Shown one piece after another: positions 26,438 through 55,236 of a stretch of 64,000 nucleotides of DNA. The stretch is from Adineta ricciae (Eukaryota; Rotifera; Eurotatoria; Adinetida; Adinetidae). The first letter of the stretch is position 1. Every line of letters starts with the position of its first letter. Position numbers and translations under genes: made by a program. A model generated the notes under the pieces. The model did not search any database. It was not told the origin of the DNA and was given only the letters and a program-made list of their open reading frames with translations. The stretch is taken from assembly GCA_905250025.1 (NCBI GenBank), contig CAJNOJ010000023.1:186001-250000 (forward strand), written 5' to 3'.

Positions 26438-27932
26438 TTAATTCGATTTTCGTTTTAACGAACGCGTAGTTGGAGAATCAGTGCTCGTCTCATCGTCACT
26501 GGCACTATCTTCACTATCCTGCTTTGGCTGAGTTTGGAAGTGGTGGCCGCACCGTGGGCAAGCATGCTCAATACGCTTGACCGGCTTACGTTTGGAATTT
26601 CGTGTGTGAACCTCTACAAAACAAGATCATATGAGTATTCGTGGTAAAATTTTATGTTTATGTTTAACATACCATGTAGAATAGAGGAGAAAACGGTTGT
26701 GTCCCATTCCGGAATACGAGTTTTGCCATCGGCAGCTATCGAACAATACGTAAACGCTAGTTGAGATTTCTCCAGTTGGTATGTTTGAATTAATTCTTTA
26801 GGATTTAATGGAGCATATCCTTGAACATTTGTGCTGATTGCGGGATCAATGGCGTTGCGATACGGTTCAAATGGTACCAACGGTTGAAGGTGTTTTAGAT
26901 GATCTTGCTTAGCTTTTATCAAGACCAAATATAGTCTGAAACGAATATATACGTGTAAGTTCTTTTCTAAGAAACTACAAGGAATTTACTTACTTCATTA
27001 TTCCATTTTTGACCTCTTTAATTTTCAGCTGAAGGGGATTGACGTCCGGTACGTTCACATTATCGTTATCTTCTTGAAATTTGTATGGCATCCTGTATCG
27101 CCGACCATATTTATCAACGACTGTCAGCCAATCAACTTGAATGTAACCTTGAAGCCCATCGGCAATCTATAATTTGAATTGAAAAGGTTTAGAGAATATA
27201 TCTTATTATCCTCTTACTTCAAGTGCTACAAAATGGTTGTTTAATTCATCCGCTACGTATCTTGGTTTTCGCTTCCTCCCGTATAGGGAGAAATAATCAC
27301 TTTTATACCGCAGACGAAAACGATCTTCTAGTTTGTGAACAATGGCTATTTTGCGAGACGAGATGTTTGCACCATGTATTTTTTCAAAATCGATCGTTGG
27401 TGGAACGACAGCTGGGTTCTCATTAGATTGATTTTCGTACTCGCCTGATTTAAAAAGTAACAAAATCAACGTTACTATCTTTTTGGAGATCATAAAATCG
27501 ATTACTTACTATTTTTTAAGCCGTAGATATTGCTCAACGACGCATTGGTATCGCTCAGATAACGATAGATGTCTAGAAAGTTAAAAGTAAACTTTTATCA
27601 AAAGGATGCGACTTGGTTTTAAATGAACTACTTTGATGATTGGCCACAACGACATTTGTATGTAATACTGGTAGCTCAGTAGGTTTTTCATGTGGATCTG
27701 TAGAAATACAGTTGAATGGACGTTCCAAATAATAGCCTACTTTATATTGTACCGTACCTGTATATGCGTCTAGAAAATCTAGTTCTTCCTTCTCGTCAAG
27801 ATCGCTAAAAGGAGGTTTGTCGACTCGTTCACCACGATATTGTTCTGAAAGTGGCTGAAGACTGTCTACGATATCTTCACCAAATGGGTAGTCGTGTAGA
27901 AAATCAAGGATCTCAGAATTTAGATTGTACAT
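26438..27932 (-). CDS. Rel/NF-kB-like gene 1: RHD-N only, CPxC tail
   Basis: Seven exons, about 380 residues. An acidic N-terminus (EELDFLDAYT) leads to the Rel N-terminal domain: recognition loop DRFRLRYKSDY (27300-27340), strand PRYVADELNNHFVALE, YIQVDWLTVV, LYLVLIKAKQDHL and the last strand KSQLAFTYCSIAADG. After ETTVF-type linker residues (WDTTVFSSIL) the IPT domain is absent. Instead a final exon (about 26613-26438) encodes a basic patch SKRKPVKRIEH, a zinc-knuckle-like CPRCGHHF, an acidic Ser-rich run and SLKRKSN. It should bind kappaB-like DNA in the nucleus but lacks the usual dimerisation module. The Cys-Glu of the canonical RYxCE loop is Ser-Asp here. Family assignment is by comparison with the complete array members. 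Confidence 0.75.
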
Positions 27933-28829
27933 GAGTCGACTGTTTCACTCGGCTTATTTGTCAATAGTAAGGCCGGCGGCTTACAGATGACGTACGGATA
28001 CGGAGAACACCACTTGAGGGGCTTACTTTGAATATGTATCTATGCCTAGCTTTGTGAGTATTTATAAGTAGGAAGAGCCAAAATACGTCACCTGGGTTTT
28101 TCCATGCATGATTTTAAAGGAAGAAAAAGGAAAGAAAAACAAAACGAAACGTAACCATGACGTCAGTAAAAGTGTGCAAGACTTTGAAATATCATACAAA
28201 ATATAAACTTTAGTGAGAGAAAATGAGATTGATATCTGGTATGAATAATGATAATCTGATTTCATGATGATACAATGTCTGATTAGTTTTTTTATGCAGT
28301 AATAACTGTGTTGAGATGTTATTTTTTCCATTATAAAACGGAAAAAGTACAAGTACTGAAAATGTTCGTGCGTTTCTATAGAAACTGGAATATGTAGATG
28401 GATATCAAGATTTATTTACAACGAAGAATAATTGCGTTTTCTACTATAGAGAATTCCATATCAAATATATAATGAGGGACTATGATGCACCGCCTTTGTA
28501 GGCAATGATTTCATCGTATGATGTAATAACTGTCTTCTGATGTAATTCAGAGTCACCCACCCACCCCGCACTCTTTTTTCGAGTCGAAATAAACCGTTTG
28601 AAAGATTTAAGATTTTCTTTGCTATATAAGTGGGTACATGAAAAGTTCAATTTATACAAATTCGATTAAACAAAGAAACACAAGTAAATATGTTTATGAA
28701 ACAGAATATAAAAGCCAGTAAAACGGTGACGGTTGTTTTTTTTTATCGTCTAAAGCGAAGGTAAACGTACATGTTGGATATAACCAGCATAGAAAGAGCA
28801 AATTTTTACTTGTTTTTTTTTACGATGAA
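27933..28829. other. Intergenic between array genes 1 and 2
   Basis: About 0.9 kb. No coding or repeat feature recognised; the 96-codon minus frame (28062-28352) has no Rel or other similarity. Confidence 0.45.
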
Positions 28830-30246
28830 TTATTTTTTTCGTTTCTTCGCTGCCTTTCCATGACTAATGTCATCTATTGGTTCATTTGTTGGTTCAAACG
28901 AATGTGAACATTTTGGACAAGTAACTGTCGTTTTTTTTGAACTGTCACATGATTGTTCTGCAAACAAAATCAAAGACACGAGAAAGTCACGAGAAATTCG
29001 TTCATTTAGTTCTTACCGGTCATAATTGTGGAATAAACAGTTGTTTCCCAATTAGGTGTACACGGTTTCCCGCTTGGATCGGGCAAACAGAGTGTGAATG
29101 CTAACTGAGATTTGTCCAACTGAAGGCACCGAATCAAGTTTTTCGGCGACATTGGGGTAAATTCTATAAAACTTTCCGATCCTTCCCTCGGTGGAAACAA
29201 CTGCAATTGATTGAGGCCTTTCAATTCGTCTTGTTTTGACTTTATCAATACCAGTTGTAACCTAAATTGAAAATATCAGTCATAAACACCAAGATTCAAA
29301 TGAAAGAACTTTACATCATATGACCTGATTGATCGGTTTCGATAGGAATATATACCGGGTTACAATATTGCCGTCCATTGTGTTTGTCCTCGGTTTGAAA
29401 TAGGTAGGACATTAAGCAGCGTGTGTTATTACTGTGCCCGATTGTAACCCAGTCGGCACGTATGAAACCTTCTGTACCGGGGGTAATCTGAGAACAAAAA
29501 TATATGGAATACGTAGTGCAAAATAAAGTTTTAATTAATAAATATTACCTCTAATAACACATAGTGGTTGCCAAGTGCATCAGTGACATATCGTGGGAAA
29601 CGATTTTTGCCATTTTGAGGATTATAATCGCTTTTATATCGGGCTTTATAGTCTTCCTCCAGAGGATGAACAATTCTCAGTTTAGGAGTGAAATCTTTTG
29701 GTTTATGCAAAGCTTCAGTCGTAACTGATTTGGAAAGTAGAACAGGTCTGGACGGTAGCGGTTCTTGATCCACTAAATAAACAAGAGTGGTTATGGCATA
29801 CATTTCATATACGTAAGATGAATATCACTCTTACCAGTAGGTCGCTCGTGCCAGAGTGTGGCTCGATCATCAATAACTTGTTGGGTGATGTATTCATCAG
29901 TGTTATCTGTATGAAACAACGAGCAGTCAGTAATAAGATCGTGCTCATATCTAGAGTCGTTACTTTTTGATTGAACACCTTCTGGGAAATATTGATCCCA
30001 TTCGCTTCTGTCGTCATCTTCAATTGATATTCCTATAAGAGGACAAACGAATAATCAATTGTGAGGTGTAACGGTTCGAACATCTTATGTCTTACCTAGC
30101 TGCTTGTTTTTTTTGTTTATGTCGTTATTGAGTATATCGAGAGGATTAGGCGTTGAACGAAACGCGTCTGATGTCCCAATCAAATTTCGAATAGTGTCAT
30201 CAAGTGGACACGAACGGAAAAGTTCTTCCACTGATGATGGCTCCAT
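28830..30246 (-). CDS. Rel/NF-kB-like gene 2: RHD-N only, CPxC tail
   Basis: About seven exons, roughly 355 residues. The start ATG at 30246 opens MEPSSVEELFRSCPLDD. The recognition loop reads EDYKARYKSDY (around 29630), then PRYVTDALGNHYVLLE, FIRADWVTIG, LQLVLIKSKQDEL and KSQLAFTLCLPDPSG with the linker ETTVYSTIMTG. The last exon has no IPT: it encodes KKTTVTCPKCSHSFEP, a CPxC knuckle, and ends in a strong basic nuclear signal AAKKRKK just before TAA at 28830-28832. The layout matches gene 1, but the order of knuckle and basic patch is reversed, which suggests independent drift after duplication. Confidence 0.75.
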
Positions 30247-31038: not shown

Positions 31039-32975
31039 TTACGTTGTTTTTCTCTTTTTGGCCATGCAACGGGCCTTCGATCGCTAGAAAGAATTGAAAA
31101 AGATTATTTTGAAAGCAATAGAATAAATTTTGTTTGACAATACTTCTGTAGTAGTGCGCGATGAATGACCCACAGGCGCTTTTCGTTTCCTTTCTGTCTT
31201 TACGGCAGGAACATCGTTGGGATTGAAACAATGCTTACAATTTGGGCAACTGATGCTTTTTACTTGGTCCTTTGCCGCCTGCTCTAAAAATCGAACAGAT
31301 TTGTGTCCATACGTTTAATATGACTACTAATCTATACTTGGCTTGGTACTTGCTGAGGCTGGTGTTTTTGCTGCGGTTTCAGTAATCATCGAGGAGATAA
31401 CCGTTGTTTCAGGATGAATATCGTACAAACCATTGGGTAGTTTCGTACATAAAGTGAAAGCTATATGGGATTTGTCCAGTTGATATTTAGTAATTAATTC
31501 TTTCGCTGATAATTTCTCGTTGCTGATCAGATCTAAAATCAGGTGAAATACATTTTTTGCATGAAAGTCAACCACAGACTTACTTCCGACAGTAACAGTC
31601 GTATCCGAGAACGGTTTTAATGGTTGGGCGTCATAAAGTTGATCTAACTTTGACTTGATCAAAACAAGCTGAAGTCTAGATAAAAAGAGAGAACCATAAC
31701 AGTTATGCGGTTGTCCATACGCACAGCCAATGTGTTTACTTCATGGAATTACTATTATTGATTGTTTGAACAGGTAAATAGATAGGATTCTGGTCAGGCA
31801 CTTTCATATCGTTGTGATTCGTTTGAAATTTATATGGACTGTAATAATGTTCGTGGTTACCCACTGCTGTTGTGATCAAAGCAATACGGACATATTCTGT
31901 TTTTAAATCACGGTTATATTCATGCGGCATCTGAAATAAAAACGAGAATGATGCAGAAACAGTAACACTTGACACTATTCTTCGCATACAATTAATGTAA
32001 CATAATGATTTTCGTGGTCGTCAGTGACGTAACGTGGTCGCCGGACAATACCATTTTGCGGGAAATAGTCACTTTTATATCGTGGTCGATAGGTTGATTC
32101 CAGTGGATGAAGAAGTTTTAACGGATTTGATGCTAAATCTGTCACTGCGACCGAATTTGATAATGAGATGGCTTGACCCAGTGACGCGTTTGTTGCTAAT
32201 AAAAAAGAAAAGCTTCATATGATTTAGTTAATTTTCCTTGTCGAACGAACATTTTTCGACAGTTGAACGAGGAATAGGTAACACTGAGTTACTTGTTTTG
32301 ATAATCGTCGAACATTCGTCTGTACTTTGTATTGCTGAAACAAACAGCTCAGAATGAGAAAATGATTTTCTGCGTAGCGAAGTTTTACTTTTGGTCATAT
32401 CATTTGATTCTGTCGCACTGAATATATCGGTGCTATTTTCCAAACATCTCGACAAGAAAGGACTAGCTGCTGTTAAAAACAAAAAGACTGTTTATAAATT
32501 AGCCCGTAATAGTGTACTCACATGAATATTCTTCGCCATCGGAATCTAAGAGGTCGAGCAAATCTTCGAATGCATCAGGTCCTAATGCAAAATCTACATC
32601 TAGAAATATACCACACGCATGATTATGAAGCTTTTCCCTTCTACGATGTGTTCGCCAACCTGTGTGCGAGATGTTCTGAAATGACTCATTGATGTCATTT
32701 TCACATAGATCCAGCCAACCTGCACGAAAAGAGAATAATTTACCATAAAAACGATTTCGAATGAGTTACGAATTTCTGCACTTGGCAATGATGGTTGAAC
32801 CGGGCCTTGGATAGAAGAGAAATCGTAATTTATCAATAGAATCAGTTTGCATACATACAGTTTGAAACAAGAGTACTCAAGCCATCTATTGTCTGACCAT
32901 CAGTCTTGGCGTCTGAAATAGATTCTTCAAGGACATCTTGCAAAATGGACACTCACACTTACTAGACTCGGCCAT
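31039..32975 (-). CDS. Rel/NF-kB-like gene 3: RHD-N only, CPxC tail, extended N-terminus
   Basis: About eleven short exons. The start MAES at 32975 is followed by spliced small exons encoding acidic, hydrophobic motifs (ALGPDAFEDLLDLLDSDGEE, around 32530-32600) and a Ser-rich exon (32482-32235). The Rel loop is STYRPRYKSDY (around 32075), then PRYVTDDHENHYVTL, TEYVRIALITTA, LQLVLIKSKLDQL and KSHIAFTLCTKLPNG with linker ETTVISSMI. The tail has no IPT: ISCPNCKHCFNP (CPxC), then TERKRKAP and, after one more intron, AKKRKTT. One N-terminal exon appears to use the donor GTTCGT. Acidic N-terminus plus nuclear tail suggests an activator, which is inference. Confidence 0.72.
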
Positions 32976-33657
32976 AAGTCTTCTTTTCTTCTAGGAATAA
33001 TATCTTCAATTAAAACATGCTGTACACCACGGTAAGTGGTGTCGGTCGAAGCAAAATAATCTATAAATATGATAAAATCTTCACTTATGCATAAACGTTG
33101 TTGCGCACCAAAATCAAATAGCAACCATATCCCATCCTACCATGTGATGCATTCGAATTTCGCGTTTAGATAAAAAGAGAACAGCCCTCACCCTCAAAAA
33201 CTCTTTCGCGTCCTGAAGTATACACTGAAAAATACCGTCAAGAAAGCATGTTATTTTTTTTCTTTTCTTGTCGGATTTTTCCGGCCTATACGCCTATATG
33301 TGTCTGTCGTTATTCGGATTTGTTCTCTTTTCCTCTATGGTTCTTTACTTTTTTGTTATTTTTTTCCTTGCATGAATATCATGTGACGTCATTGGGACAG
33401 AAAGAGAAAAAAATTCCGATTGCAAATCGAAAGACACAGAAAATGAGCATATCTGAAAGAGAAAAATAAATACTTTTATTTGACTGAAAAATAAAAAAAA
33501 GACGCTTGAATCGTCATGAATAGTCATGATTAGGAAGGTATTTATGTAAATGAAGACTAGTAAATACTCAAATAGTAAGAAAACAACACCATGTGTTTGT
33601 TAGTTATTTAAAAAAACAAAATGATCCATGTGTTTTCAACACCATGAAGAATGTATA
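32976..33657. other. Intergenic between array genes 3 and 4
   Basis: 0.7 kb, T-rich in its middle. Promoter of gene 3 and 3' UTR of gene 4; nothing else recognised. Confidence 0.45.
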
Positions 33658-35455
33658 TTAGCGCGGATAAGGCCCTTCCGCAAGGATAGATAATGGACTA
33701 TCCATGCACGGTCCTTGGACTTGTTTTGATATACCACTCGTTGTACGAGTTACCTAAAATGAGCCGATTTTAGTACGATACAAACTATTCATGTCTGTAG
33801 TGCGGAATTGTTTTTTCTCTGACAATTTCGGTAAAACATCAGCTTAAAAATTTTAGATATGGAATAAAGAGTACCGATAATTTGGCTTTTTTAGCTGGCC
33901 TAATCATTGACGTATCCATTGTATCGGCTGGCGAACTTTTTCGTTTGACACCTTTTGTTGCTGTTTTTTCTAAAAGAAATGAGATACACATACACACAGC
34001 TGGACGTACGCATTATTGTTGATTGATACTCACGCTCATTAATAAGATCGGTTTCACATGTCACTGGCAAACTACAAATGCAGTTCCCCTGTTTCACTGC
34101 TAGTTGAAAGACAATTTTGTAGCAATGTAGGTCGTAATCGGACGAAAATTGCTTCCCTTTAGCCACTTTACTCATACGATCTTCATTGGGTACGGTATCT
34201 AAAACCAGTAGTCCACAAAAGCAACGGCACAAGATTTAAGATGGACATACATTGCTTAATATGCCGATCGGATGCTGATGTATCAAACGATGCTAATGCG
34301 AAGGTATATTCATCGAATTTTTTGCACGTAATCGATGAGCGTGGAAATCTGAGTAAGAAATATCGAAGTTCTTCGATTTAGTATCGTGAAAAGTCTCGTT
34401 GGACTTACGATTTCTCGCATGAATTAATATCCGATTTCGTTAATGGAACAAACACACTCCCATAATCCAAATCAATAGCATCATCCGTGTGGTATTTGAT
34501 ACTATTGACATGTACGAATGTTTGATTGTCCGGATTATTTGTCGAAGTTACCATCGTCATAATGACACCGAATGTTCCGTTTATTAATGACGTAACAGTT
34601 GATAAATCCAAAAACTATCGAATGAAAATATTTACAAAAAACGTGATTTCCTGCTAAGTGTGATTATGACTAACTTGAATCGTCATGGGATGTTTTCTCG
34701 AATTAGGCAGAAATCGTTTCCCATCACTTTGATAACGTACACGATGAGCAGGGTGAGGGTGTTCTTTAACGACCATGGCAACATTAGACAATATAGCGTC
34801 ATTCGTAATAGTTTCAAAATATGCCGGTTCCAGTGCTTCGTTTACCGTATCAGAATACGTGATCTTGTATGACACAAAACACGCTGGTCATCATGAAACG
34901 ATAAACGACTTACGATTTCTTCACGTAGATCATAGTCGAGGTTTTGACATAATTCATCTTCTACCAGATGTTGATCATTTATAATGTTATCATTCTCCGT
35001 CAATACATCTATGATACTATCCAAAAATCAGTGCGAAATACATGAAAATAACTTTACTAGATGTGGCATTCGATGGGGTTGATAATAGTAGTAAATCTTT
35101 ATCTATATGGCAAAGAAAATGTTAGAAGAAAAAGTGGAAACTCAAGACCTACGTTGAGATACATCCAGTGAACTATGTTCATCAGGAATATTCAACACTG
35201 TGTCCGATAACCATGATAGATCTACGCTTCTATCGTTCCAGAAGTCAGCGAAGTTTATTATGCTCTCTCTATTATCTTTAAAGACAGTTGATATATTTTC
35301 TTCTTGAGACGAATCATTTAAATACAATGAAAAATCATCATCAAGACTATTTGTTTGCAAAACTAGAATTTATCAAAGAGAGAAACTTAAACTGTCCTTG
35401 GCTTGATTATTTCGAATTCACTCTTCAACATACATTCATCATTTTCCCACAGCAT
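33658..35455 (-). CDS. Rel/NF-kB-like gene 4: divergent RHD-N, basic tail
   Basis: About ten exons, near 400 residues. Exon 1 (MLWENDE) ends at a GTATG donor and joins FLQTNSLDDDFSLYLND. Further acidic exons precede the Rel loop PAHRVRYQSDGKRFLP (around 34720) and HPMTIQ. The next exon gives VIMTMVTSTNNPDNQTFVHV and VFVPLTKSDI, equivalent to the HPYEL-to-FPV strand region of complete members. DLHCYKIVFQLAVKQGN is the last Rel strand. No IPT and no CxxC; the tail has two basic patches (VKRKSS, PAKKAKLS) and ends at TAA 33658-33660. More diverged than genes 1-3; assignment relies on shared exon layout. Confidence 0.65.
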
Positions 35456-35976: not shown

Positions 35977-37616
35977 TTATTTGTCCGTGACAACGTGCGT
36001 TTGACAATATACACCGGTTGAATGCCAACGATTGCGTTGTTTCACCATCAATTCGCATACAATACGATATTCGTTTGTATGAAATTCGCGGTCAAACCGT
36101 TTGGCCCTTTTCATTTTCGACAGATTCGCGTCATCTGGAATCGTGTCTAGAGAGAAATAAATAAAATCGACTTATAACAATCACAAGCGTTAGTGAACCT
36201 ACATGGAAAAATATGGTCGACGTTCATTAAAGGGTCGAAGGGAGTTAAGCCGTAAATGTAGTCATTGCGCAATGTCTTAATCACAGAAAAATGTCGAAAT
36301 CTAAATTAAAGTAGAAGGTCAGTTATGTTTGACATTATACATGATTTTCTTTTACATCTTTCTGCGATGGAGAATATCATCTGCTGTCAATGGAATACGG
36401 AACGAATGGAGTCCATTTTCTATAGCACCTTGACCTCTGTATGAAATTTCATGTTGATGCACAAAAACTCGTCGTTGAGGATTGTTCTGAGTCGTAACAA
36501 TTGTGCATTGAATCCAAAAGGATTGATAGACTTCTTTTAAACAGCCGGTCAAATTCGGTAACTAAAAAAGAAAACGAAGGAAAAAGTTAGAAATATAACT
36601 TATTCGTAAGGATTTCTAACCCCGATCGTCATTGGATGCGTTCGTGATTCTTCTAGGTAGCGAATATTGTCTGAACGGTAGCGAAAACGGTGGTGCGCGT
36701 TCGGTTGACGGGCCATGTGCATGAGCGGCTGACCGTTACGTTGCATGGCGTCCATCGTCGTTTGAAGAATAGCCTCCTCAGAAACTTCGTTCATAGCATT
36801 CTGCAACTGCAACAAAAATGTATCAATACTTTCTAGATCAGAAAGTCTGCCGTCAATTAACTTACGAAGTTAGCGATGGAAGCTATTGCTTGATTCGCAG
36901 TCGGATCGCTTTGTACCGGGATAGTACCGTTATTATTATGCTCCACTTCTTGTGTATCTAGATGAAACAAATTTATCATCAAATTCAACTCATATAGCGA
37001 ACAAACCCGATGCTGGATCTTGCAAAATTTCATTGAAATCTTCGTAGGACATCGGCTCTTCTAAACATGAAGAGTAACAATGCATATCGTGTCAAAAATA
37101 TTTAAAGAGCTTTGTGAATAATCAACTATGTCAGTGATACCAACTTCAGTTTCAGGAAACTCTTTCATTAGAAAGAACATACCCAAAAGCTCCGCTATTG
37201 ATTGGCACTCTGATAACGTTGTTCCAGACGTATCTAAATACAATCATTGACGAATCGAAGTTTCTCCACAAAGAAATATTTACCAACTGTGTCTTGATAC
37301 TCAGTCTGCGCCTCTGGTATCGTGGCGTACATATCATTTGGTAACAGTGGTGATGTATCCAGTTGTTCATGCCCTAAACATATTCAATTTTGTTATTATA
37401 AATCTTTTCAGATACTGTTATCGACCTGCGCCAAATGATAATTGTTCAATTGCGCTGTTACCATTGGTAAAAGGTAAGAGAGCTTCATCCAAGTCTATCA
37501 GACTTGGATCACTTGTTGGTTCGTTGTTTGGAGCTAGTTTGGAAAGAAAATATGCGAAATATTCGAAAACATCACAATGAATGGCTCAGCTTACAACTCG
37601 ATGAATCCGAATTCAT
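35977..37616 (-). CDS. Rel/NF-kB-like gene 5: divergent RHD-N, no tail
   Basis: About nine exons, near 370 residues. Exon 1 MNSDSS at 37616 joins PSLIDLDEALLPF and several acidic exons. The Rel loop is AHHRFRYRSDNIRYLE (around 36680) followed by HPMTIGV, then SFWIQCTIVTTQNNPQ, FRIPLTADDIL and FHTNEYRIVCELMVKQRN. The protein stops soon after (VVTDK, TAA at 35977-35979), so it has neither IPT nor the basic or CPxC tail. The arginines of the loop (HRFRYR) are well kept, so DNA contact is plausible; nuclear entry would depend on an internal patch (KMKRAKRF). Confidence 0.65.
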
Positions 37617-38164
37617 ACTGCTTGGATATGAATGAGTATTTTATGTGAAATCTATAATACGAAGTGAACTCATATCAGTTTAGCTCTTAAATAATACGCG
37701 AAATCCCAATACGCAAAGCTTGTATAAACTGCATTCTGTTTGCCCAAATGCTTCAGGTAGGAAGTAGAAAATTTTAACGAAAGAAATATTTTTCAATTCT
37801 TCTGTAGAGAGGATTGGTGGAATAGATGTCTCTTTGTTTTTCTATTATAAAACATAATTATGCAATAAATGTAACTGACGACGAAATCGTCTTAATCTCG
37901 AAAACAATCTGTGCGACATCAGAAGTGACAAATTACAGAAAGATTTTCTTTTAAAAAATATCGCAATCTGAAACATCTTCTTGTGAAACAAAACAATAAA
38001 ATGGAAAGAGTACTCTCGTCTAGTATGATAAAAAAAAACAAGCATTTATTGGCGAATTGCTCATAGCAACAAAGCATTGTTAAACCATTAAGTTATAATA
38101 GGATTTTAGATCGGTTTCGAATTCTCTAGAATAACAAACGATTTAACCAGTGAAATTGAACAAA
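37617..38164. other. Intergenic between array genes 5 and 6
   Basis: 0.55 kb, AT-rich; nothing recognised. Confidence 0.45.
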
Positions 38165-39667
38165 TTAACTTGCTACTTGTTTCTTTGATGATTTTCGGTG
38201 ATGTACTTGATCTTCGTCGTCGTCTACCATTACCGAGCGCTTCGACGCTTTGTTTGAACTACGTTGCCCGTTTTCTAGGATAGCAGCGATACTCGACATA
38301 ATCTACTCATTTGAATGACTTACTCTCTTCCATTAGATCTGTGACACAAACTATGTTAGTCGTATGCCATGTGTTATCATATTTGATGAGCAACTGGCAA
38401 GCAATTTGGCTCGATTTGAGGTGATACTCATCCCGAAACGCTTTCGCTGTGGCCACGACGCTCTTTTTACTTGTGTTTTTATCTAATAAACAAAAATTAA
38501 ATTCTATATATATATTTAAGATGTAGATTACAAGTCTCCAATTGATTATTTCCGAAAATGGGAACAAATGGTTTCAGTTCGAATGTATAGGCATCAAGCT
38601 TTGACTTAATGATTGAGATACGAGCCAATCTGAATTTAAAAGGAAAACATAAACGAGAGAAAACGTAGACATTTTCGTACTCTTTCACTCTTGACTGAAT
38701 ATCTGATGCGGTTAACGGTACACGAACAAATCCGTGATCGTATTCCGACGAATTATCATCATGGTATTCCAGTTTATCTGGGTGAATATAGACTTTGCCC
38801 TTTGGGTTATTGTCTGATGTTATTAAAACCAACTGTAACCAGAATGATTGATTCGAACCTAGTTGACACGTTTCCAAATTGGGCAACTATGAAAAATAGA
38901 ATAAACAAAGATAAATGCAAACTAGTATGATGAGTCTAGCATTACTTTGATTGCCATTGGTTTTGATCGGGAATTTTCAATTTGCCGTTTGCCATCACTT
39001 TGATATCGTCGACGAATATCCTTGGGTGGTTGGATTTGTACGAACATTATTCGATCAGAAATTGTTCGATCGATATTTTCCAGAACACTTTTGTTTAATT
39101 CTTCTTTGATCCATTCTTTTGTTGCATCGAATGACTTTAAAGTCAAATCTGTTTCTATCACTTCTGAATTAAACTCATTACTATGCAGCAATCGATTCAC
39201 ATTATTTTCGATATCTGAGAGAAGATTATTTTAGTTCATTGAAAACTGTATGAGTATTGAACAGACCTGCAGAAATTGAGAGACTTTCTTGACTATCGAC
39301 AGAATCTATTTTCGAAGAAGAAAAAGAAATGATATGCCTAAGAATAGAACATAGCTCTACCTTCATTTAATAATGAAAATTCATCGATCGGTAACGGCAA
39401 TGTCGAGCAATCATTTTCAAAGACATCTGTTACGTAGAAAGAACGTTGAACGTAATAAATTGGTGTTAATTATATATGAAGACATTTACTTGAACTGAAT
39501 GAAAGTCGTGTTGTAGGAAACAGAGGTATATTCAGAAATTCTTCAACAGTTATCTGACTGATACGAGATTCGTCATTGTACAAATGATCTTCATCTAAGT
39601 AAAGGATTTATTAGATATTAAGGAAAAAGTATGGATTAAATATACCATCAAATGGTTGACAATTCAT
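38165..39667 (-). CDS. Rel/NF-kB-like gene 6: divergent RHD-N, basic tail
   Basis: About nine exons. Exon 1 (MNCQPFD, ATG at 39667) joins acidic small exons (VEEFLNIPLF). The Rel loop is PKDIRRRYQSDGKRQ (around 39010) with KPMAIKV, then SFWLQLVLITSDNNPKGKV, a HPDKL equivalent of HPYEL, FVRVPLTASDI and SSQIACQLLIKYDN. The last exon encodes SSNKASKRSVMVDDDED and HRKSSKKQVAS, a basic and acidic tail, with no IPT, ankyrin or CxxC. Genes 4, 5 and 6 resemble each other more than genes 1-3 do and form a second subgroup of short members. Confidence 0.65.
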
Positions 39668-40841: not shown

Positions 40842-42994
40842 TTATGATGATAATAAACTGATACATTGTTCATTGTTGTGATATGCGGCGACTTGCTTTG
40901 GTGTTTGGTGTTCGGCATTGATTTGTTCCAGGAGAGACTTTTTTGTGTCAGGTTGCAATTTTTTTAGAACAAATTCAATTGTGTTCGCTGCAGTAGCATC
41001 AGCCGTTCGAGCAATGTTATGAAATATGTTATTACCTAATTTATCAGTTTGCTTGACAAGTTCTGGACGTTTGTGTAGGATTCGTTTGATCAGTTCGATC
41101 TGATTAAATTTTGCTGCGACTAGCAGTGGTGCTTCTCCTTGTAAATTTGTTTGTTCGAGAAAACCATTCGTGTTTTCGATCAGGTCGAACAGTACTTGTG
41201 GATTCCTTTGTTTCATATGATTTGCCAATACGGAAAATGGATCTTCTGATTCAGTTAATGTCCATAGTTCTCTGATCAGAGTTGAATTTTCATGATCTTT
41301 ATTTGTTTGATTGGATGGTATTTCAAGAAATGGATCATCATCATCATCATCATCTGTGTTCTCTTCAAAATCGCCATGTGGCCGTTTTCGAGTGGTGGAG
41401 GGTGTTATATTGGAAGACGCTAGATCGAAATCACACATGAGACATTTTGATACTAAAAATAGCGAAGAACGCACATAGAAATAGTTTACAATAAAGAAGC
41501 ACGAACATGATATATACGTAAAGTGAACTCGATTGATTTCAACGTCATTGATATTGATAACAATCGGAATCGTCAGTGTTGGTTTGTCTCTTGTTAATCG
41601 TTCTGGACATGGTGGCGTTAAAAACGCGATTGTTTTTTCATCAACAAACTCTCGCTGAACTAATGCTCGTTGATCAATGGCAGGATGTTCGAATCGAATG
41701 TGTAATCCTAAATGAATGCAAAACTATAATCCCATTACGCTCAATTCTTGTTTGCAAATTCTTGAATCTTGAAAACAAAAAAGAAATAACATGCGCGCTC
41801 GAGACGATGCCCTCCTATCATCTTTTTATAGCAAAGACTGCGTCGGATACAAATTCTCTATTTGAGTTATTTCACCTGAAAAACTGATTCATCCAGCATG
41901 ATGCAGCATCTTCAAGTACAAGGTCTGTCTAGTGTAAAAAATGCTGTTGTACTCTCTATATTTTACTTGTTTATGTCAGTTAGATAAGATATATGACATG
42001 GTAGACAGCTATATGGCTCGAAGACAACACTCCAGCTCGGTATATATCTGCGACCTCATAGTCGAACGAGTGATCGAATTGAAAACTAAAAAAACGTGAA
42101 AATTCGGCAGATTACTCACTCTTTCTTCTGTCAAGTTGTGGAATGAACATCAATATTTCATCGCCGCCTTGACAATCACCTTTTTGTGGTGAATATCGAA
42201 AACAGGCATCGTTATCATTCGTCGATATTTTCGTACCAGTTATTACGTGTGAATAAACAGTTGAGATATTGTATGTTACTGGAAAGGCAGTAGGACATTC
42301 AGGTTCAAAAGCAGCTAAAGAAAAAAACAGGCGTGACTGTGATAATTGATAATATTCGATAATTTTCTTTGCATCCATGCAGTAGTTTGCATCCAATGTA
42401 TGGAAGTTTTCTATGGAATAGTGAGATAAGAAGGAAATTGTATTGACTTGAAAGTCTTTTACCAGAATTGTGAATTCTCAGTGCTCCATGTTCCACTATT
42501 TCATGATGAGTCAGCTTTTGTATACAAAATTGAAAACTGAGAAAAAGTCCGATCATTTATCTCTTTCATTCTAAATTCTACCTTTTTCGACCAGTTTGGA
42601 ATTCTCCGTCTGATAGTGGAAAATACAATGAGTTTGTTGCTTTATCAGAAATGATAGCAGGATCGTCCGAAGCGATCTTGTAAGGATGTACGCATACATT
42701 ATGCACCTGTTCACTAGGAACAGTAACAAGTCCGACACGAATGAAGTATTTTAATGATCTTTTTTGAAGCCATTCGTGCGGAATCTGTAAGATACGTTCG
42801 ATACAAGAAAAATGCTTTTCTTTTTAAACGCTGTTTACCTCAATTGTTGGATAAACCAAACCATTTGTATTTACTTCGCCATGGATAAAACGTTGGGCTC
42901 GGTTTTGTCGAGGATTGGTTTCACGTTTGTATCGTTCGCGATAGAATGGTCGAGGTTGTAACAAGATCCGAAGTGATGGCATGGCTTTAGCCAT
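40842..42994 (-). CDS. NF-kB p100/p105-like gene 7: RHD-N, IPT, ankyrin
   Basis: About six coding exons, roughly 540 residues. The frame opens almost directly at the Rel loop: RPFYRERYKRETN (42900-42960), then VYPTIE, YFIRVGLVTV with VHPYKI, NSLYFPLSDGEF and FQFCIQKLTHHEIVEHGAL, the counterpart of the conserved Rel strand before the linker. QSRLFFSLAAFEP and GDCQGGDEILMFIP lead into the IPT (LHIRFEHPAIDQRALVQREF to VHFTYIS, 41713-41531). A CLMCDFD motif and TRKRPHGDFEE basic patch follow, an Asp run, then about four ankyrin repeats (GEAPLLVAAKFNQIELIKRI; LGNNIFHNIAR) to TAA 40842-40844. It lacks the acidic N-terminus of its neighbours; a 5' exon may be missing. The intron at about 42114-41714 is unusually long (400 nt). 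Confidence 0.83.
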
Positions 42995-45245: not shown

Positions 45246-47936
45246 TTAATTACGAGATAATAATTCAAAACAGCATGTGTTTTCATGTAATTCTGCTGTT
45301 CTCGCTGGAGTCTCACCATTTTTATTCATTTGCATCAATAGATTCGTCTTCACTTCTTCAGACATGATATTAAAGAGATTCTTAATTGTTTCAGCACCCG
45401 CATCATCCTTCACACTTCCGACTTTGTGCAACAAGTTATTACCGTCATTGTCCACTCTTTCAATCACATCTTTTCGCATCTTCACCAACATCTCAATCAC
45501 TTTCCATGCATTACATCGACCTCCGACTAACAGCACGTTTTCCCCACTTTCGTTTCTTCTCTCCAGTATGTCGTTTTCTTCGCGCATACTAGCCACTTGT
45601 TCAATGATCGTCAGCGCCAACGAAATGTGTCCTCGTTCGATAGCAACATGCAGTGGTGGTGGACTATCTACACATTTCGACAACAACACGCGAGTTCGAC
45701 GAAACAGTCGAGAAGGATCGTTGGTTTGAACAAACTGGACTAGTGCTTCTTGTAGTTGATCGAGATATTTGTCGAGTTTAGCAGCATGATCTAGACATAG
45801 AACGTCGAAAAGAAATAGACACGATGCTCGATGAGCGACATACCATCTCGTGCCGCTGCTGTAGTTACTTTAGTCGTTGTTGTTTTTGTAGCTGCTGTAG
45901 TTGTCGTTGTTGCTGTAGCACTTGGCATTGATTCCGACGATGATGATGATGATGATGACGACGATGATGACGATGCTTCGCTGTCCTTCTATTCATACAC
46001 ACAAAACGTACAATCGAACGGTGTCAATCATATCCATGCAACACCCTACCCGTTCAAGTCCCATCCTTGCTATTCCCGATGTCAGATCACCCACGAACTT
46101 AACATCGTCCAACTCTTCTCGTCCACGCTGTCGTTTGTTACTTGCCGTGTTTCCTTGATTGACGAATGTAGTTTGACTACAAGCTGGGCACAGGCTCAAT
46201 GTCATGCTGATGGCTAAAGACACACGAAGAAGAACAATGGAGAACACAAGGTGAGCATGAGAGAGTGTCGTTTGCTGAGAGACATACGTGGTACATAGGT
46301 GAAATTGACCAAGGCTATGACTACATTGTTTTCTCTGATAGTCATTGGAAAATTACGAGGCTGGTCAGTGAATGGCAGTGGACATTGTGGTGCCATGAAT
46401 GAAAAGACTCTTTTGTCAATGTGTGTGACATTGTTAAGTACCACTAATGGATGTGGTGTGAAATCAAAGGTAATGGTATAGTCTAAAATGGGCAAATGTT
46501 TTCAGTGAGAAGGAGAGAAGTGAAGTTTGGCGAGTACTTTTCTGTCTGTTGGGTTGTTGTGGTAAGATGATAACGATTTCTTCGTTTCCTCTCCAATCAA
46601 CTTTTTGTGGTATACATTTAATAAGGGGTGATGCGCGTGTATCATTGAATTGCCGCGCTGGTGATCCTGACAAAAAGAATCAAATCTAGTAACAATAAAT
46701 TGTATTAATAATACTAACTTGAGCCACTTGTAGTCGTGTCAATCATAGATGTAGAGAAAATAAGGGTTTCCCATTGAAAAACGGGCACTGATATGGCATC
46801 AGTCCGATGAGCGATCATGAATGCAAGTTTGGACGCTCCCAGCTGGTAAAATTCGATGGTTTGCTTTACATTTTGTATGGTCTCATCATGCGACTGACAC
46901 GATGGTTCGAAGCCTAGGAAAGCATTTGAGAAGTCTGTGAGGATATGAAGTGTTGTTATTACTATTACCAAATGGTATGAGAGCACCATGTGCTTTCAAT
47001 TCCTCTTGTTTTTTCTTCGTGACAATCAGTCGAAAACTGAAATAGTAGGTAGCTTCGGTCAATATTGAACTGAACAGATGTGGTACTAAACTATTACCTT
47101 TTTTCGCCTGTTAACATTTCCTTTTCATTCACAGGAAAGTAAAGAGAATTATTTTGAGATGGATCTTGAAAAACATCACCATCCACCGCAGTAAGTTCAT
47201 ATGGATGAATATAATAATTACTTCCTGTTCCACTCCTTTCGGTGACAAGAGTCACTCGAATATACAGTCTTTGCCATGGATTCCAAGAACGCCATTGCTT
47301 AGGAATCTATTAGTTATAGATTAGAAAGAAAAAAATCTTTACAACATTGTTGATTCAGCAAAACAAGAGTAGTAGATTAATGTAGAGTTATCGAATTTTG
47401 TGAAAATATAGGCTTTTGAACACATGTGCATACCTTAATAGTCGGATATTGATACGGGCTTTTTTCTGGGTCAGTACGTATAAAACGATTCGCTGGACTG
47501 TTCTCGCATTTATAACGTCCGCGGTACTCTTCGTTCGGTTGTGCTATTATTTCGAGGGGTTCGCTCTGCTGCAGCTCAGAATAAAGTGACAAAGGCGAAT
47601 TATTGAGGGGGTCGTTCGTTCCAGTAGATTCGTAAGCGATCACACCTTCACTGGTAGATCCTGATAAGTTTGAAGAATTGGGACTGTTTGCTCCGGTCAA
47701 TTCACCAGAACTAAGGATTTCAGTAAGAGCTGCAAAATCTGTGTAGAAAAAAAAGGTCGGCCGTTACGTTGCATTTTTAAATCAATCTATACCTATTTGC
47801 GATAATTCCGTTATTACGAACTCCGGTGGATTGGGATTGGGGCTCCAAGGTTCATCTACCATAGATAAATATCCAATCATACAACAAATTGCTTCTCTAT
47901 GAATGTACACATACCTAAATCGGTAAAGGCGCTCAT
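45246..47936 (-). CDS. NF-kB p100/p105-like gene 8: RHD-N, IPT, ankyrin (canonical loop)
   Basis: About eleven exons, near 680 residues, start MSAFTDL at 47936. Rel loop EEYRGRYKCENS (47530 region) keeps the canonical Arg, Tyr, Cys and Glu. Then YQYPTIK, LYIRVTLVTERS, IHPYEL, NSLYFPVNEKEM and FRLIVTKKKQEEL. SKLAFMIAHRTD and the linker region lead to VDWRGNEEIVIILPQQ and the IPT (NYTITFDFTPHPLVVLNN to LVNFTYVP, 46485-46280). After it come LCPACSQTT (CxxC), SNKRQRGREE (nuclear signal), a Ser-rich run coded by TCATCG repeats (45935-45972), and ankyrin repeats (PPPLHVAIERGHISLALTII; GENVLLVGGRCNAWKVIEML; GNNLLHKVGS) to the end. Processing to a p50-like form is conceivable but not shown. Confidence 0.88.
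45374..46622. repeat. Near-identical block shared with 52101-53500 (copy in gene 8)
   Basis: From AAGAGATT..TTAATTG on the left to TACATTTAAT on the right, exons and introns match the copy in gene 10 with only scattered substitutions and a length change in the repeat tract. Sequence on both sides is diverged. Confidence 0.85.
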
Positions 47937-48829: not shown

Positions 48830-51756
48830 TCAATCATCCTCGTCATCGGATGATGGACTCGAGTCTTCGGATATTTGGTGTGGAGGATTGATCTTTCGTA
48901 AATATGTCGTAATATCATCGCGATGGAGTGATTGAGCTAATTCAATTGGTGTCATAGCCAGGTTACTGTGATTTAGCAGCTGACCTAACTTGCCATCTTC
49001 GATCAAATACTCAACCATATCTAAATCACCATAGCGAACAGCAAGATGTAGAAGATTGTCACCGATGTGATTTTGAACTTCATGGATGCTTGTGTTGGAA
49101 TATTGAAGGATTTTTTTCGTTACTAAGAGATTATTTTTTGCGACACTCAATTGCAATGGAGTTCGAGATTCATGATTTCGATGATCGAATGTTTCCTGAA
49201 TAGGAAAGGATTTTTCCAAAAGATAATCAATCATTGAATCAAGTATCTCAACAGATGTTGTATAACATGCCATGATATGAAAAATATTGTTCTGCATATT
49301 GTCTGTTTCTTTCATTAACGCTTGTGCTCCTGTTTTGTGCAATAAACTTTTAACTATTTCAATACGATTGAGTCGAAGAGCATGTAAAAGTGTATTTTCG
49401 CCCAACGACTCATTTTTTAGTTGAAGAATTTCGATGGAAGCTGCAGGAATAAATTTGGATAGAACATCACAATGGTTTCTGCTGATCGCATCGTGCATAG
49501 TTTGAGGATGCTTTCGAATAAACGAACGACCAATACGAAGTAATGAAGTATAATCGTTTTCCAAAAATAAGCTCTCGAAACTAGTGAACAACGCTTTAAT
49601 TATTTCATCAGAGGAATCTTTGTTTTTTCCACCAGTTTGCTTGGACGACGATGGCTCCGGTATCTATCAGAAGTAGGTAGTCCTCAGTGTGTTAAAACAG
49701 AATGTAACTTACGGGTTTAGCGGATGCTTCTGGCAACTTCTGGGAATCGTTAGCAGTAGACACCACAATATCATACTCATACGCTCCATGGTCAAATACC
49801 TGAGAAGCCATACGTTTACTTGGTACGTTTGGTATTTCATTGCTTTGGCTATTCATAGTATGTAGGTGACAATTCGAACATTGAGTGGCTAAAATAATAA
49901 TTGAAATCGTGAGTATTCAGTGCGGTGAAAAATGTCATTTAGTTACATGTTGGTAGGTAAAAATATGTTAGTGTGTCTACATCACGACTACTCTGCCGAA
50001 GTATAACATTCACCTGAACAGCTTGATCAAATTCGTAAGGAAATTTCGGTGTTTTAAAAGAAACAATTCGATCCGTGATAGTTAAGTTGTCAATTTCATG
50101 CGACCAATGTTGATTCAGAGAATTAAATTCGAAGACTACTTTTAATTCTAGATAAAATACCGAAAAGTGATTATAGAAAATCCAAATCGAGCCTGTTCCA
50201 CTTACGGCCATATTTTCTCACTTCAAGTTTCTTACTCGTCAGAATAATTATCATGTCTTCGCTATTCGTGTTGACAGTGTATCGCGGTGCATACTTATAC
50301 ACACGACAGGATGGTTCAGGAGAAGTCGTGCTCTGTTCATCCACTGATTGACTATCATTTTCAGGTTCTCCTGATCCCGAGTCGCCTTCTATCATAGGTT
50401 CCGAAAATGCAGTGGTTTGCGGATATGGAGTCATATAAATATCATCAGAATTAACTGTCTTTTGAACGATTGTAAACGCTAATTGACTCTGACCAAGGCT
50501 ATATTCTTTCTTCAATTGTTTTGCAGTAGTGGATGCATTCGCGCCGGTATCATTTTGCAAATTTGAACCTAAGTTTCAGCAGGAAACAAATCTTACTCTA
50601 TTTTGTTTCATTAAATTATCATATTCGCTCACCAACGCCATCGAATACTTGTAGACATCCATAGTTTTTCAATTCGCCTTCTCGTTCTTTCACGATTCGA
50701 ATTGTCGGAAAACTAAAACATCGATGGAGCTAACAACGAAAAGAACTATTGTATCTCCTATACCTTTTAGTGCCAGTCCTATAATCTTCTTCTTGGAGAG
50801 GAAAATAAATTGAATTAGTCTCCTCGTTATACAGTTGATTATTTGTTGTATTTTCAACTCTATAAGGATGAATATAACGCAGGCACGTTCTATCGTTGAC
50901 CACTGTAACGAGACACACACGAACATAATACCCTCCATTGGGATCAAGATATTGTTGTGGAATCTAATGAAAGAATGTTGAGATTCAGTTCACTAATGCA
51001 TTAAATGAAACATACACGAATGGCTGGTCCCGTGTAACTGGAGTTTTTCGTGCGATTTTTTAATACACCCTGCCGTTGATCGTTTTTGCTATAGTCACTT
51101 CTGTAGCGTAATTTTGTTCCATAATATGGCTGAGCAATAATTTCTATTTGATCAGGGAATGTCTGCATATCCGATGGCAAAGCAACAGCTTGATACACAG
51201 CTAAATGGAAAGGAAGTTTTATTACGATGAATTTATCCATCGTACATACGATTTGTCACTTCCTGTTGCTGTATATTCGAGTTGTTATCTGGAGAAAAGC
51301 CTGATGGAGTCTGTGCAGAGGTTGGATTATTCAATTCAGACATTATCGAATTAATATCGATATCTGGCAGGAATTCTAAAAAAAGCCGATGCGAGAAATT
51401 TCATTGTTGCAGATTTCTAACCGTTGTTCACATTTAAATTGAGATCTCCTGTAAAATATTAATGGATTTCATAAAACCTTTTATTTTAATTCGCTTGATA
51501 CGGATCTCACCTGTTAGATTGTCAATATCGAGCAATAGAGTTGGAGAATTGAGAAGAGTGTCATAGACTATAATGAGAAAAGAAAAGCAAATACAACATG
51601 TATTTATACATCACCCTGGTCATTACGTGTATCATCATTGCTTTGGTTGTTCAACTGTGACATGAGAAGAATTAACTCAATGTAATCTGCAAGAGAAAAA
51701 GTCTCTGAATAATTCTGCACACAGCTCTTTCGAGAATTTCGGCAAAGATTTATCAT
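48830..51756 (-). CDS. NF-kB p100/p105-like gene 9: RHD-N, IPT, long ankyrin domain
   Basis: About fourteen exons, near 800 residues. The frame is open back to ATG 51756; Met at 51663 (MSQLNN) is an alternative start. Acidic small exons (LLLDIDNLTGDL, EFLPDIDINSI) precede the Rel loop YGTKLRYRSDYSK (51100 region). Then YYVRVCLVTVV, IHPYRV, NSIYFPLQEEDY and FPTIRIVKEREGEL follow. GQSQLAFTIVQ, a long Asp/Ser linker and NSEDMIIILTSKK lead to the IPT (LKVVFEFNSLNQHWSHEID, 50150-49940). Next are TQCSNCHLH (CxxC), PSKRMAS, and a C-terminal exon (49600-48830) with about five ankyrin repeats (ENTLLHALRLNRIEIVKSLL; RTPLQLSVAKNN; GDNLLHLAVRYGDLDMVEYL). It ends in an acidic, phosphorylatable tail (SEDSSPSSDDEDD), as in IkB proteins. 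Confidence 0.86.
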
Positions 51757-51934
51757 ATATGTACATTGCTTCTTTGCTCAAAACCGGGAAAAAATTCGAT
51801 GAAAAATGTCATAGTGAGTCACTGAAAAAACATGTTTCTCTATAGGTTTGAAAATATCGAATCATTTTATTTGCAAGAAAATGAAGATAGTACAAAACAC
51901 TACTTAGTAACTATTACACAAAGATACAATTATA

Positions 51935-54900
51935 TTACGAACAGGCTGGTTGTTCGTTTACTTCGTTAGATTTAATTGATTCATTTAATAAAATTGCGCA
52001 CCGAATGTTGCCTTGCGATTGCGCAATTTCCGCTGCACTTTGATTCATTTTATTCCTTGCATTTAAAAGCCGCGTTTTAACGTCACTGGGTAAAATTTCC
52101 AAGAGATTTTTAATTGTTTCAGCACCCGCATCATCCTTCACACTTCCAACTTTGTGCAACAAGTTATTACCGCCATTGTCCACTCTTTCAATCACATCTT
52201 TTCGCATCTTCACCAACATCTCAATCACTTTCCATGCATTACATCGACCTCCGACTAACAGCACGTTTTCCCCACTTTCGTTTCTTCTCTCCAGTATGTC
52301 GTTTTCTTCGCGCATACTAGCCACTTGTTCAATGATCGTCAGCGCCAACGAAATGTGTCCTCGTTCGATAGCAACATGCAGTGGTGGTGGACTATCTACA
52401 CATTTCGACAACAACACGCGAGTTCGACGAAACAGTCGAGAAGGATCGTTGGTTTGAACAAATTGGACTAGTGCTTCTTGTAGTTGATCGAGATATTTAT
52501 CGAGTTTAGCAGCATGATCTAGACATAGAACGTCGAAAAGAAATAGACACGATGCTCGATCAACGACATACCATCTCGTGCCGCTGCTGTAGTTACTTTA
52601 ATCGTTGTTGTTTTTGTAGCTGTTGTTGTTGCTGTAGCCGCTGTAGCTGTTGTAGCTGTTGCTGTAGCTGTTGTTGTTGCTGTAGCTGCTGTAGCTGCTG
52701 TAGCTGTTGTTGTTGCTGTAGCCGCTGTAGCTGCTGTTGTTGTTACTGTAGCCGCTGTAGCTGCTGTAGCTGTTGTTGTTGCTGTAGCCGCTGTAGCTGC
52801 TGTAGCTATTGTTGTTGCTGTAGCACTTGGTATTGATTCCGACGATGATGATGCTTCGCTGTCCTTCTATTCATACACACAAAACATACAATCAAACGGT
52901 GTCAATCATTTCCATGCAACACCCTACCTGTTCAAGTCCCATCCTTGCTATTCCCGATGTCAGAGCATTCACGAACTTAACATCGTCCACATCTTCTCGT
53001 CCACGCTGTCGTTTGTTACTTGCCGTGTTTCCTTGATTGACGAATGTAGTTTGACTACAAGCTGGACACAGGCTCAACATCATGCTGATGGCTAAAGACA
53101 CACGAAGAAGAACAATGGAGAACACAAGGTGAGCATGAGAGAGTGTCGTTTGCTGAGAGACATACGTGGTACATAGGTGAAATTGACCAAGGCTATGACT
53201 ACATTGTTTTCTCTGATAGTCATTGGAAAATTACGAGGCTGGTCAGTGAATGGCAATGGACATTGTGGTGCCATGAATGAAAAGACTCTTTTGTCAATGT
53301 GTGTGATATTGTTAAGTACCACTAATGGATGTGGTGTGAAATCAAAGGTAATGGTATAGTCTAAAATGGGCAAATGTTTTCGGTGAGAAGGAGAAAAGTG
53401 AAGTTTGGCGAGTACTTTTCTGTCTGTTGGGTTGTTGTGGTAAGATGATAACGATTTCTTCGTTTCCTCTCCAATCAACTTTTTGTGGTATACATTTAAT
53501 TTGTGTCAGCAATGTTTGCTGAATATAGTTGGTTGTTGTTTCTGGAAAAGATCAAAAGTAGTTGGTACAATCTTTTAAATGTATACGAACGTCGATCTCC
53601 CGTTTCGACATCAGTCATAGTATCTGATAGGACCGCTGTTTGCATGATCGGATGTGGTAGAGAATGTTGATTGAATCGTTCGGCAATGACAAACATAAGC
53701 TGACAGTCCCACAGTTGGTATGCAGTAATAGTTTGTTTTGGTTTTTGGGAGTATATGACTTGTTGATTATCTAGCTGATCTAAATTATATAGATATGTGC
53801 CAACACAGACGAGTTAAAGCGTGGACAGAAGATCAGAAAATCTCATGCCATCGGGTGGGAAATCCCTTCTGGGTGATCCCCGTGAAAGCAAATGGGATAT
53901 TGTGAGTCAACTCTTTTGTATCCCATTGTTCGTTATACGTGTCTATTTGTAGAGCAGCAAGAGAAAAGGCCGATGATTGTATTTCATTTGGATAGTTTTA
54001 CATTTTAGAAGTCAGATGGCTAAAAAGTATGACAACAAAAAAAAAGCTTGGCTCATATTTGACACATGGTGCGCAGTGAAATGTGAAAGATAAAGTAATC
54101 GAGTCTACTGTTATATAAGACATTTGACGATTTTCATCTAATCAAATCTGTTTAGTCTTCTATACGGACTCAATCTACTCTTTTCTTACCTGTTCCATAG
54201 ATCCGTAACATTCCATACTCTTTTAAATCACTTTGAATCATTTTCGTTCGGCTGATTAAAAATCTAGATAAACAAGTGCATCGTACAACAAGCTACCATG
54301 AATTGCTAGTCACATACCGTTTTTGGCAACTAGCAAATTCTTCTGGATGAATACGAAAATACAGCGAATTATTCTTTTCTTCGTAATCTTTAATGAGACC
54401 AATTTCATCCGCATCAATTCGGTATGGATGTACACAATGATACTGTCTAGTATCCGTTTTGACTGTCACTGGTGTAACTTGAATATACAACTCACGTGTC
54501 GGATCACACCATTTCCGTGAAAACTATTCAGACGAACATTTCATGTGTGAAGAGGGCTCAATGAGAGGCCGGGTGTCGCATACCTGAACAGTTGGATATT
54601 CGAAACCGTTTTTATTTCCAGTTCGAATGAAACGATGAGCTCGATTTCTGTTTGAATCTGTTTCGCAATGATACCGCTCACGGTAACGTGATTTGGGCTG
54701 TGCGATTATTCGAAGTTTGTCGTCATCAGCTCCATCTAGCTGATTGGATGGTGTATTGTTGTCAGAAAGAGGCATTTCTTGAGAATTATACGAAGGTACG
54801 GTATCTAAACTATCTGGTTGAGGATAAGTATCTCCAAGATAATTTTGCAGAAAGTCCTCATCATTCAAAAGAAACTGAGACTCCAAAAATGGTGCAATGT

Positions 54901-55236
54901 CTGTTGGTGATGGATCTTGTAATGGAGAATTTGAATTACTACCATTACTTGTACGAATACCAGGAGGAGTTGGTGTTGAACCTAGACAAGAAAATATTCT
55001 TACGGAAAATCCGACATGTGATATACTTGTGCATACTCGGTGAGGCTAAACAGAGAAATTAAATCATGAAAAATAATTAACTAAGTTTGTGAGTTGTAAC
55101 TTACTCAGAAGCTGATTGATTGCTTCTGTTGACGGTGAAGGAAGTACATCATTGAAGTCTAAAGGCGAGAAAATAACGAATAGCTTAAGAAGGATGTTAG
55201 GAAGTGAAATTTACTGTAGTCGCCGAAGCTAAACAT
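51935..55236 (-). CDS. NF-kB p100/p105-like gene 10: RHD-N, IPT, Ala/Thr repeat, ankyrin (canonical loop)
   Basis: About eleven exons, near 770 residues, start MFSFGDY at 55236. An acidic N-terminus (FLLNDEDFLQNYLGD) leads to the Rel loop SRYRERYHCETD (54650 region), canonical in Arg, Tyr, Cys and Glu. FEYPTVQ, LYIQVTPVTVKTD, HPYRID, NSLYFRIHPEEF and FLISRTKMIQSDL follow. From VDWRGNEEIVIIL through the IPT, LCPACSQTT, SNKRQRGRED and the ankyrin repeats it is nearly identical to gene 8. It differs by a long Ala/Thr-rich run from tandem GCT-ACA-GCA-ACA units (52602-52824). The final 60 residues (LPSDVKTRLLNARN onward) diverge again. The junction near 53590 needs the weak donor GTTCGT. The intron at about 53786-54190 is longer than its neighbours. 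Confidence 0.86.
52101..53500. repeat. Near-identical block shared with 45374-46622 (copy in gene 10)
   Basis: Covers the last part of the Rel region, IPT, CxxC/basic segment and most ankyrin repeats with their introns. It is about 150 bp longer than the partner because of the expanded repeat at 52602-52824. Confidence 0.85.
52602..52824. repeat. Coding minisatellite, GCTACA/GCAACAACA units
   Basis: Read on the minus strand it encodes about 75 Ala and Thr residues in gene 10. On the plus strand the same DNA gives a Cys/Ser-rich frame, which is a shadow. Gene 8 has only a few units at the same place. Confidence 0.85.

Follow-up and report, generated by a model that had tools for sequence, protein, structure and literature searches.

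NF-kB proteins, regulators of immune and stress responses, are held to need their IPT domain to dimerise and to act, and the locus described here raises the question of what becomes of the Rel N-terminal DNA-binding part (RHD-N) when it is kept in gene after gene with no detectable IPT beside it. On the minus strand of the 64-kb window (the whole stretch of DNA that was analysed), splice-aware prediction gives ten spliced gene models, A to J, spanning 55236 to 26438. The outer ends of these models are those of the array in the original prediction, whose central claims of Rel-family identity, tandem expansion and two architectures are supported by the gene models together with profile and hhalign links. 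Computation establishes the presence of the ten genes, their homology with one another, their tandem order and the lack of a detectable IPT in E to J.

As the genes are spliced, a gene predictor was purpose-written, this being a home-made dynamic-programming, splice-aware program trained on the long ORFs of the window and run on both strands and then gene by gene; the region was also translated in six frames. Since the predictor admits only open frames with GT-AG introns and prefers introns of 90 bases or fewer, these features are not independent evidence; it does not impose the phases and positions of introns. Intron length is 45-75 bases in 67 of the 76 introns of the models. The models of A, B, D and H were refined with a bonus for frames homologous to the other copies, this guidance having shaped the third core block of A, the point at which the fourth core block of D begins, and the CxxC exons of B and H. 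No homology guidance went into the other five exons with a CxxC (those of A, C, D, I and J), and the unhinted model of H ends at 31327, lacking its CPNC exon.

All ten genes lie on the minus strand. Gene A (51935..55236, model of 768 aa) has an RHD-N, an IPT, a CPAC/basic exon, an Ala/Thr-rich linker and ankyrin repeats, and gene C (45246..47936, 658 aa) has the RHD-N, IPT, CPAC/basic exon and ankyrin. Gene B (48830..51663, 755 aa) follows the same order with a homology-hinted CSNC exon (Ank_2, 1.2e-12), as does gene D (40842..42994, 511 aa) with CLMC (Ank_4, 5.6e-5) and a tentative 5′ end. From gene models and profile searches, the remaining six have an RHD-N only: E (38106..39667, last exon tentative), F (35977..37616, the model stopping at the end of the RHD-N), G (33839..35455, with a tail exon that has short basic runs and no CxxC), H (31084..32975, with a homology-hinted CPNC/basic tail exon), I (28830..30246, with a CPKC/basic tail exon) and J (26438..27932, with a CPRC tail exon that has short basic runs). 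The predicted first exons of A, C, E, F and G are each 22 bases long and end in phase 1, and, should these predictions hold, such identical tiny start exons fit copies that descend from one ancestor. The predicted ATG of D comes shortly after a possible acceptor (42960-43010), so D may have upstream exons in the preceding 2.2 kb.

A profile of the ten RHD-Ns, run over the six frames of the window, recovered the core exons of all ten genes and no additional complete Rel gene; its best other matches, at E 0.44 (off-frame in I) and 0.56 (43972-44148), are at noise level. The neighbours are ordinary animal genes. An FHOD-type formin and PEX19 lie upstream of the array, likewise on the minus strand; downstream there are an RRM protein, which we take to resemble RNPS1, a PKC (kinase with C2 and C1 domains), an HSP70 whose start looks signal-like by eye, an MFS transporter, a rhodopsin-like GPCR and an Argonaute-type gene (1566-5306, plus strand; Piwi 1.7e-85, PAZ, ArgoN). 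The predicted protein of the RRM gene (24626-25738) holds a head-to-tail repeat of about 24 residues beside the only N of the window (near 25082), which probably reflects a minor flaw of the assembly. No Pfam match at E 0.01 was obtained for four ORFs lying between C and D.

With single sequences, the Pfam RHD cutoff of 27 bits is reached by none of the ten genes. The RHD-Ns of A (25.6 bits, 1.4e-5, profile positions 1-157 of 169) and C (26.1 bits, 9.7e-6) are matched below it, full-length models give RHD_DNA_bind in C only, and the RHD-N searched alone gives no RHD match in B, D or any of E to J. The original prediction, which had proposed this search, had named the lack of an RHD hit in its genes 1-6 (E to J here) as evidence against itself, and for single-sequence Pfam that is literally the outcome (0/6). 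It is outweighed by the profile-profile link of E-J to A-D and by their common gene structure, and not by any direct Pfam hit. Searched singly with phmmer against the PDB, gene C also gave no Rel match, with two FGF10 rows at E 0.85-0.86.

Profiles reach further. That of the ten RHD-Ns had 17 matches in the PDB up to E 10, all of them Rel or NFAT with p65 the best (2e-5), while a profile of E-J had six, namely five weak ones to p65 (E 0.06-0.38) and one to RuvC (1.5). A profile of A-D running through the IPT had no RHD-N chain among its matches up to E 10. In hhalign comparisons, each controlled with 60 column-shuffled profiles except where stated, A-D align with p50+p65 over 155 columns (probability 95, E 2e-8, score 57.4), all ten do so at E 3e-6 and E-J at E 0.0016, with no shuffle (0/60) reaching the score in any of the three. 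The link of E-J to A-D covers 187 columns (probability 99.6, E 1e-24, score 156; 0/60 shuffles), and both subgroups share in it, E-G at E 6e-11 to 6e-10 and H-J at E 1e-21 to 7e-20 depending on which profile is query and which template (0/60 shuffles for each). Against p50/p65, E-G alone are at chance (19/60 shuffles reach the score) and H-J alone nearly so (2/60), and a direct comparison of E-G with H-J, run without shuffles, found no match (probability 1.3). The Rel identity of E-J therefore depends on A-D, and the alignments argue for a chain of homology leading from p50/p65 to A-D and from A-D to E-J.

When NFATC2 was added to the reference, in runs without shuffles, the probability was 90 for A-D, 6 for E-J and 26 for E-G. 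A-D against NFATC2 gave a probability of 4 versus 95 for p50+p65, an uneven comparison with one NFAT sequence; A-D also carry ankyrin. In a tree with three references (p50, p65 and NFATC2) the ten group apart from these (99/100) and are not placed in Rel, NF-kB or NFAT; within the array the clades E-G (100/100) and H-J (100/98) are supported, the remaining seven inner branches lack support, and the branches are long.

The exon structure is common to the array. The RHD-N consists of four blocks, and the first two core introns agree in position and phase across the ten genes (phase 0 after block 1, phase 2 after block 2). The junction of blocks 3 and 4 is in phase 1 in seven genes, H, I and J lacking it. 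After block 4, A and C have a phase-1 intron, two IPT exons with a phase-1 intron between them, a further phase-1 intron and the CPAC/basic exon; in H, I and J, block 4 and its phase-1 intron lead directly to the exon that carries CPNC, CPKC or CPRC together with basic residues. Since phase-1 introns lie on both sides of the IPT exons of A and C, loss of both exons keeps the frame and gives the arrangement of H-J. In B and D a single exon holds block 4 and the first part of the IPT. A CxxC follows the RHD in 7/10 genes (A-D and H-J). A simple-pattern NLS scan places basic clusters in four tails (A, C, H and I) and, in D, one within the IPT region; inspection by eye adds shorter basic runs in the tails of D, G and J, with B weak. 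The N-termini of nine genes are acidic (12-25% Asp+Glu), D being left out of this figure because of its tentative 5′ end.

The signature motifs hold in part. An Arg-x-Arg-Tyr loop had been described for all ten genes; R-x-R-Y is present in eight, with K-x-R-Y in B and I, so that the array as a whole has [R/K]-x-R-Y with R-Y invariant (10/10). The motif given as HPYEL/HPxx appears as HPY in A-D only and as HPD in E, and the ETTVxS linker is exact in H and I only, the other genes having variants. Loop positions 6-7 are Cys-Glu in A and C, Arg-Glu in D and Ser-Asp in B and E-J (7/10). In the available text on Nematostella NF-kB, whether position 6 is Cys or Ser affects DNA binding and resistance to a thiol reagent, and several insect Relish proteins likewise have Ser there (PMC2751831).

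The IPT lies on the minus strand at 53166..53541 in A (two exons between phase-1 introns), 49947..50362 in B (its first part in the RHD-N exon), 46288..46666 in C (as exons) and 41507..42216 in D (across a 412-base intron), as located by the gene models and an IPT profile built from these four segments. In a search of the whole window this profile recovered the two parts of the IPT in each of A-D (E 5.5e-10 or lower), and its next best match (E 0.094) was on the plus strand below J. The only PDB match up to E 10 of an A-D profile running through the IPT was to the RelB dimerisation domain (E 0.09), and hhalign of the A-D IPT with p50+p65 gave a probability of 29 and E 6e-4 (0/60 shuffles). The presence of an IPT dimerisation domain in A-D is thus moderately supported. 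As E-J have no detectable IPT, they are filed as Rel-derived RHD-N proteins and not as complete NF-kB proteins.

It is unlikely that E-J are full RHDs whose IPT is too divergent for the profile or is spliced in alternatively from intergenic sequence. Such a view can draw on the profile having been built from only four sequences, on the tentative last exon of E and on a stop in F that overlaps a possible donor. Against it, the profile finds no IPT-like match in the exons of E-J and scores 6.0 bits at most in the gaps that separate the models E to J, compared with at least 36 bits for true parts, and I and J end in a short exon bearing the CxxC that comes after the IPT in A and C.

IPT and ankyrin together are confined to A-D, the four genes for which they had been predicted, as judged by the IPT profile and the ankyrin searches. 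Two architectures are therefore present as claimed, and the second differs by more than a missing ankyrin part, being an RHD-N without detectable IPT. Pfam ankyrin models score above cutoff in B and D. As a profile, the ankyrin exons of A-D have 144 PDB matches with an E of 0.001 or lower (best 1.6e-14), the best 60 of which include ankyrins and ankyrin-bearing channels and no I-kappaB or p100/p105. The predicted fold of the ankyrin exon of C is a helical stack (pLDDT 82.8) with 1303 PDB matches; the 50 listed are by title mostly designed ankyrin proteins, with no NF-kB or I-kappaB title among them. By eye, the linkers of A-D lack a glycine-rich stretch before the ankyrin. The linkers between CxxC and ankyrin in A (52572-52866) and C (45844-45988) hold low-complexity repeats of Ala/Thr or Ser/Ala/Thr, of unequal lengths, which stand where a glycine-rich region would be.

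The original prediction had proposed a lineage-specific expansion. Expansion in tandem is what is seen, and it is old: pS exceeds pN in 45/45 pairs of RHD-Ns, with pS at 0.66-0.87 and pN at 0.38-0.63 in a protein-guided alignment, which favours low pN. Synonymous sites in the RHD-N are near saturation, which argues for an old array, and a recent burst was rejected on the same ground.

A reading of E-J as pseudogenes, truncated or in decay after unequal crossing over within an NF-kB array, is quite unlikely. Their lack of IPT and ankyrin, the Pfam RHD score of 0/6 and the likely relic of another copy between G and H, a sign that copies die here, would all suit such an origin. However, all four core blocks with the same junction phases are kept in E-J (open frames and GT-AG ends count for little), pS exceeds pN in 15/15 pairs within this group, the R-Y of the loop is unchanged, and the alignment with A-D extends over 187 columns.

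The possible relic lies on the minus strand at 33354..33485, and resembles the second core block of an eleventh RHD-N. It scores 9.9 bits (E 0.071) against a profile of E-G, compared with a maximum of 6.1 bits in 100 first-order shuffles of the gap (0/100 reach its score), and gene F matches it in tblastn at E 0.015. As one of eleven stretches examined it is suggestive only; if real, it would mean both birth and death of copies.

A more recent event seems to have affected A and C. A tract of A in two blocks (52101..53500, minus strand) is 97.3% identical to a tract of C (45373..46622, minus strand), with 939/965 bases identical in exons (97.3%) and 236/243 in introns (97.1%), and the flanks have no significant similarity (best E 0.37). 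The RHD-Ns of the two genes are 37% identical. Identity of 97% that includes introns, beside RHD-Ns at 37%, points to ectopic gene conversion of the IPT-ankyrin half, and it is strongly indicated that recent gene conversion homogenised the dimerisation and ankyrin half of A and C.

The view that E-J belong to another family of Ig-fold regulators standing beside four NF-kB genes, to which the failure of E-G and H-J singly to reach p50/p65 clearly, or each other, lends some colour, is highly improbable given the link of E-J to A-D at E 1e-24, the separate links of E-G and H-J to A-D that none of 60 shuffles reached, intron phases that are the same as in A-D, and p65 as five of the six, albeit weak, PDB matches of the E-J profile (E 0.06-0.38).

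The locus is thus likely to derive from old local duplications of one p105/Relish-type NF-kB gene in an animal genome, with four copies keeping RHD-N, IPT and ankyrin and six keeping the RHD-N alone. A-D would then be p105/Relish-like, ankyrin-masked precursors that dimerise through the IPT and become nuclear after processing. With the same tail and different heads, A and C might answer the same signals and be able to pair while reading different sites. E-J may be constitutively nuclear, as suggested by the Rel loop, the acidic N-terminus, the basic runs in the tails of G-J and the lack of an ankyrin mask and IPT. On DNA they could occupy half-sites, either as monomers or by way of weak RHD-N contacts, and could modulate or compete with A-D. 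Nuclear residence, half-site binding and competition, and also the zinc bridging considered next, are what we infer from sequence features.

A further proposal, tentative and itself unlikely, is that E-J form a natural IPT-less Rel class in which a CPxC(x)H zinc hook in H-J pairs the RHD-Ns, zinc and redox state setting the choice of dimer. The lone CPxC(x)H knuckle of H-J comes after the RHD-N, at the place that the IPT occupies in A and C, and pairing could occur within the IPT-less class or with the same knuckle in A-D. The Ser-Asp for Cys-Glu at loop positions 6-7 would make DNA reading insensitive to oxidation.

In the p105/p100 and Relish precursors the order is that of A-D (RHD-N, IPT, basic tail, ankyrin), with the same recognition loop. 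A-D differ from these in their very low identity, the lack of a glycine-rich region, the extra CxxC after the IPT and their occurrence as four copies in tandem, two with a common converted tail. The sections available of a review accept one NF-kB configuration that also lacks the glycine-rich region, describe at least four configurations in unicellular holozoans, sponges, placozoans and cnidarians, all of which keep the RHD, and report R*RY as conserved in every identified ortholog (PMC13042239); B and I, with K-x-R-Y, differ from the latter. The IPT-less Rel proteins fit none of the four configurations in these sections. The 'RHD-only' NF-kB proteins (Nematostella, Hydra, Acanthoeca), reviewed there as nuclear and active (PMC13042239), are like E-J in having no ankyrin mask; however, according to the available part of PMC8677719 they keep the RHD including its dimerisation sequences, whereas E-J lack the IPT half.

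Choanoflagellates have 1-3 NF-kB genes, with lineage-specific duplication and divergent dimerisation behaviour in the portion consulted of PMC8677719. The array is alike in its lineage-specific duplication and differs in its ten tandem genes and loss of IPT. As excerpted, a survey of 2819 animals puts the number of proteins at about two for each family member in a species and includes proteins with multiple RHD parts, the word 'rotifer' being absent from its main text (PMC11432056). The accessible parts of PMC13042239, PMC8763368 (180 species) and PMC11432056 contain no natural Rel protein without the dimerisation half and no ten-gene tandem array, and among the matches listed in a search of open-licence titles and abstract openings no paper dealt with rotifer Rel/NF-kB genes or an IPT-less Rel protein. 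In the extracts available, one study detected no Toll-like receptor in four of the five species that it names from the Rotifera group, including Adineta vaga, and one in Epiphanes senta (PMC8609888). If the DNA is from a rotifer, the array would be a large NF-kB set without its usual receptor.

Six IPT-less RHD-N genes kept under constraint beside four complete ones would offer a test of the RHD-N alone as a working regulator. A precedent for E-J exists in the isolated RHD-Ns of NFATC1 (1a66, 178 aa) and Gambif1 (1bvo, 175 aa) as DNA binders, both entries presumably containing DNA. Those two are fragments of longer proteins, whereas E-J are natural genes.
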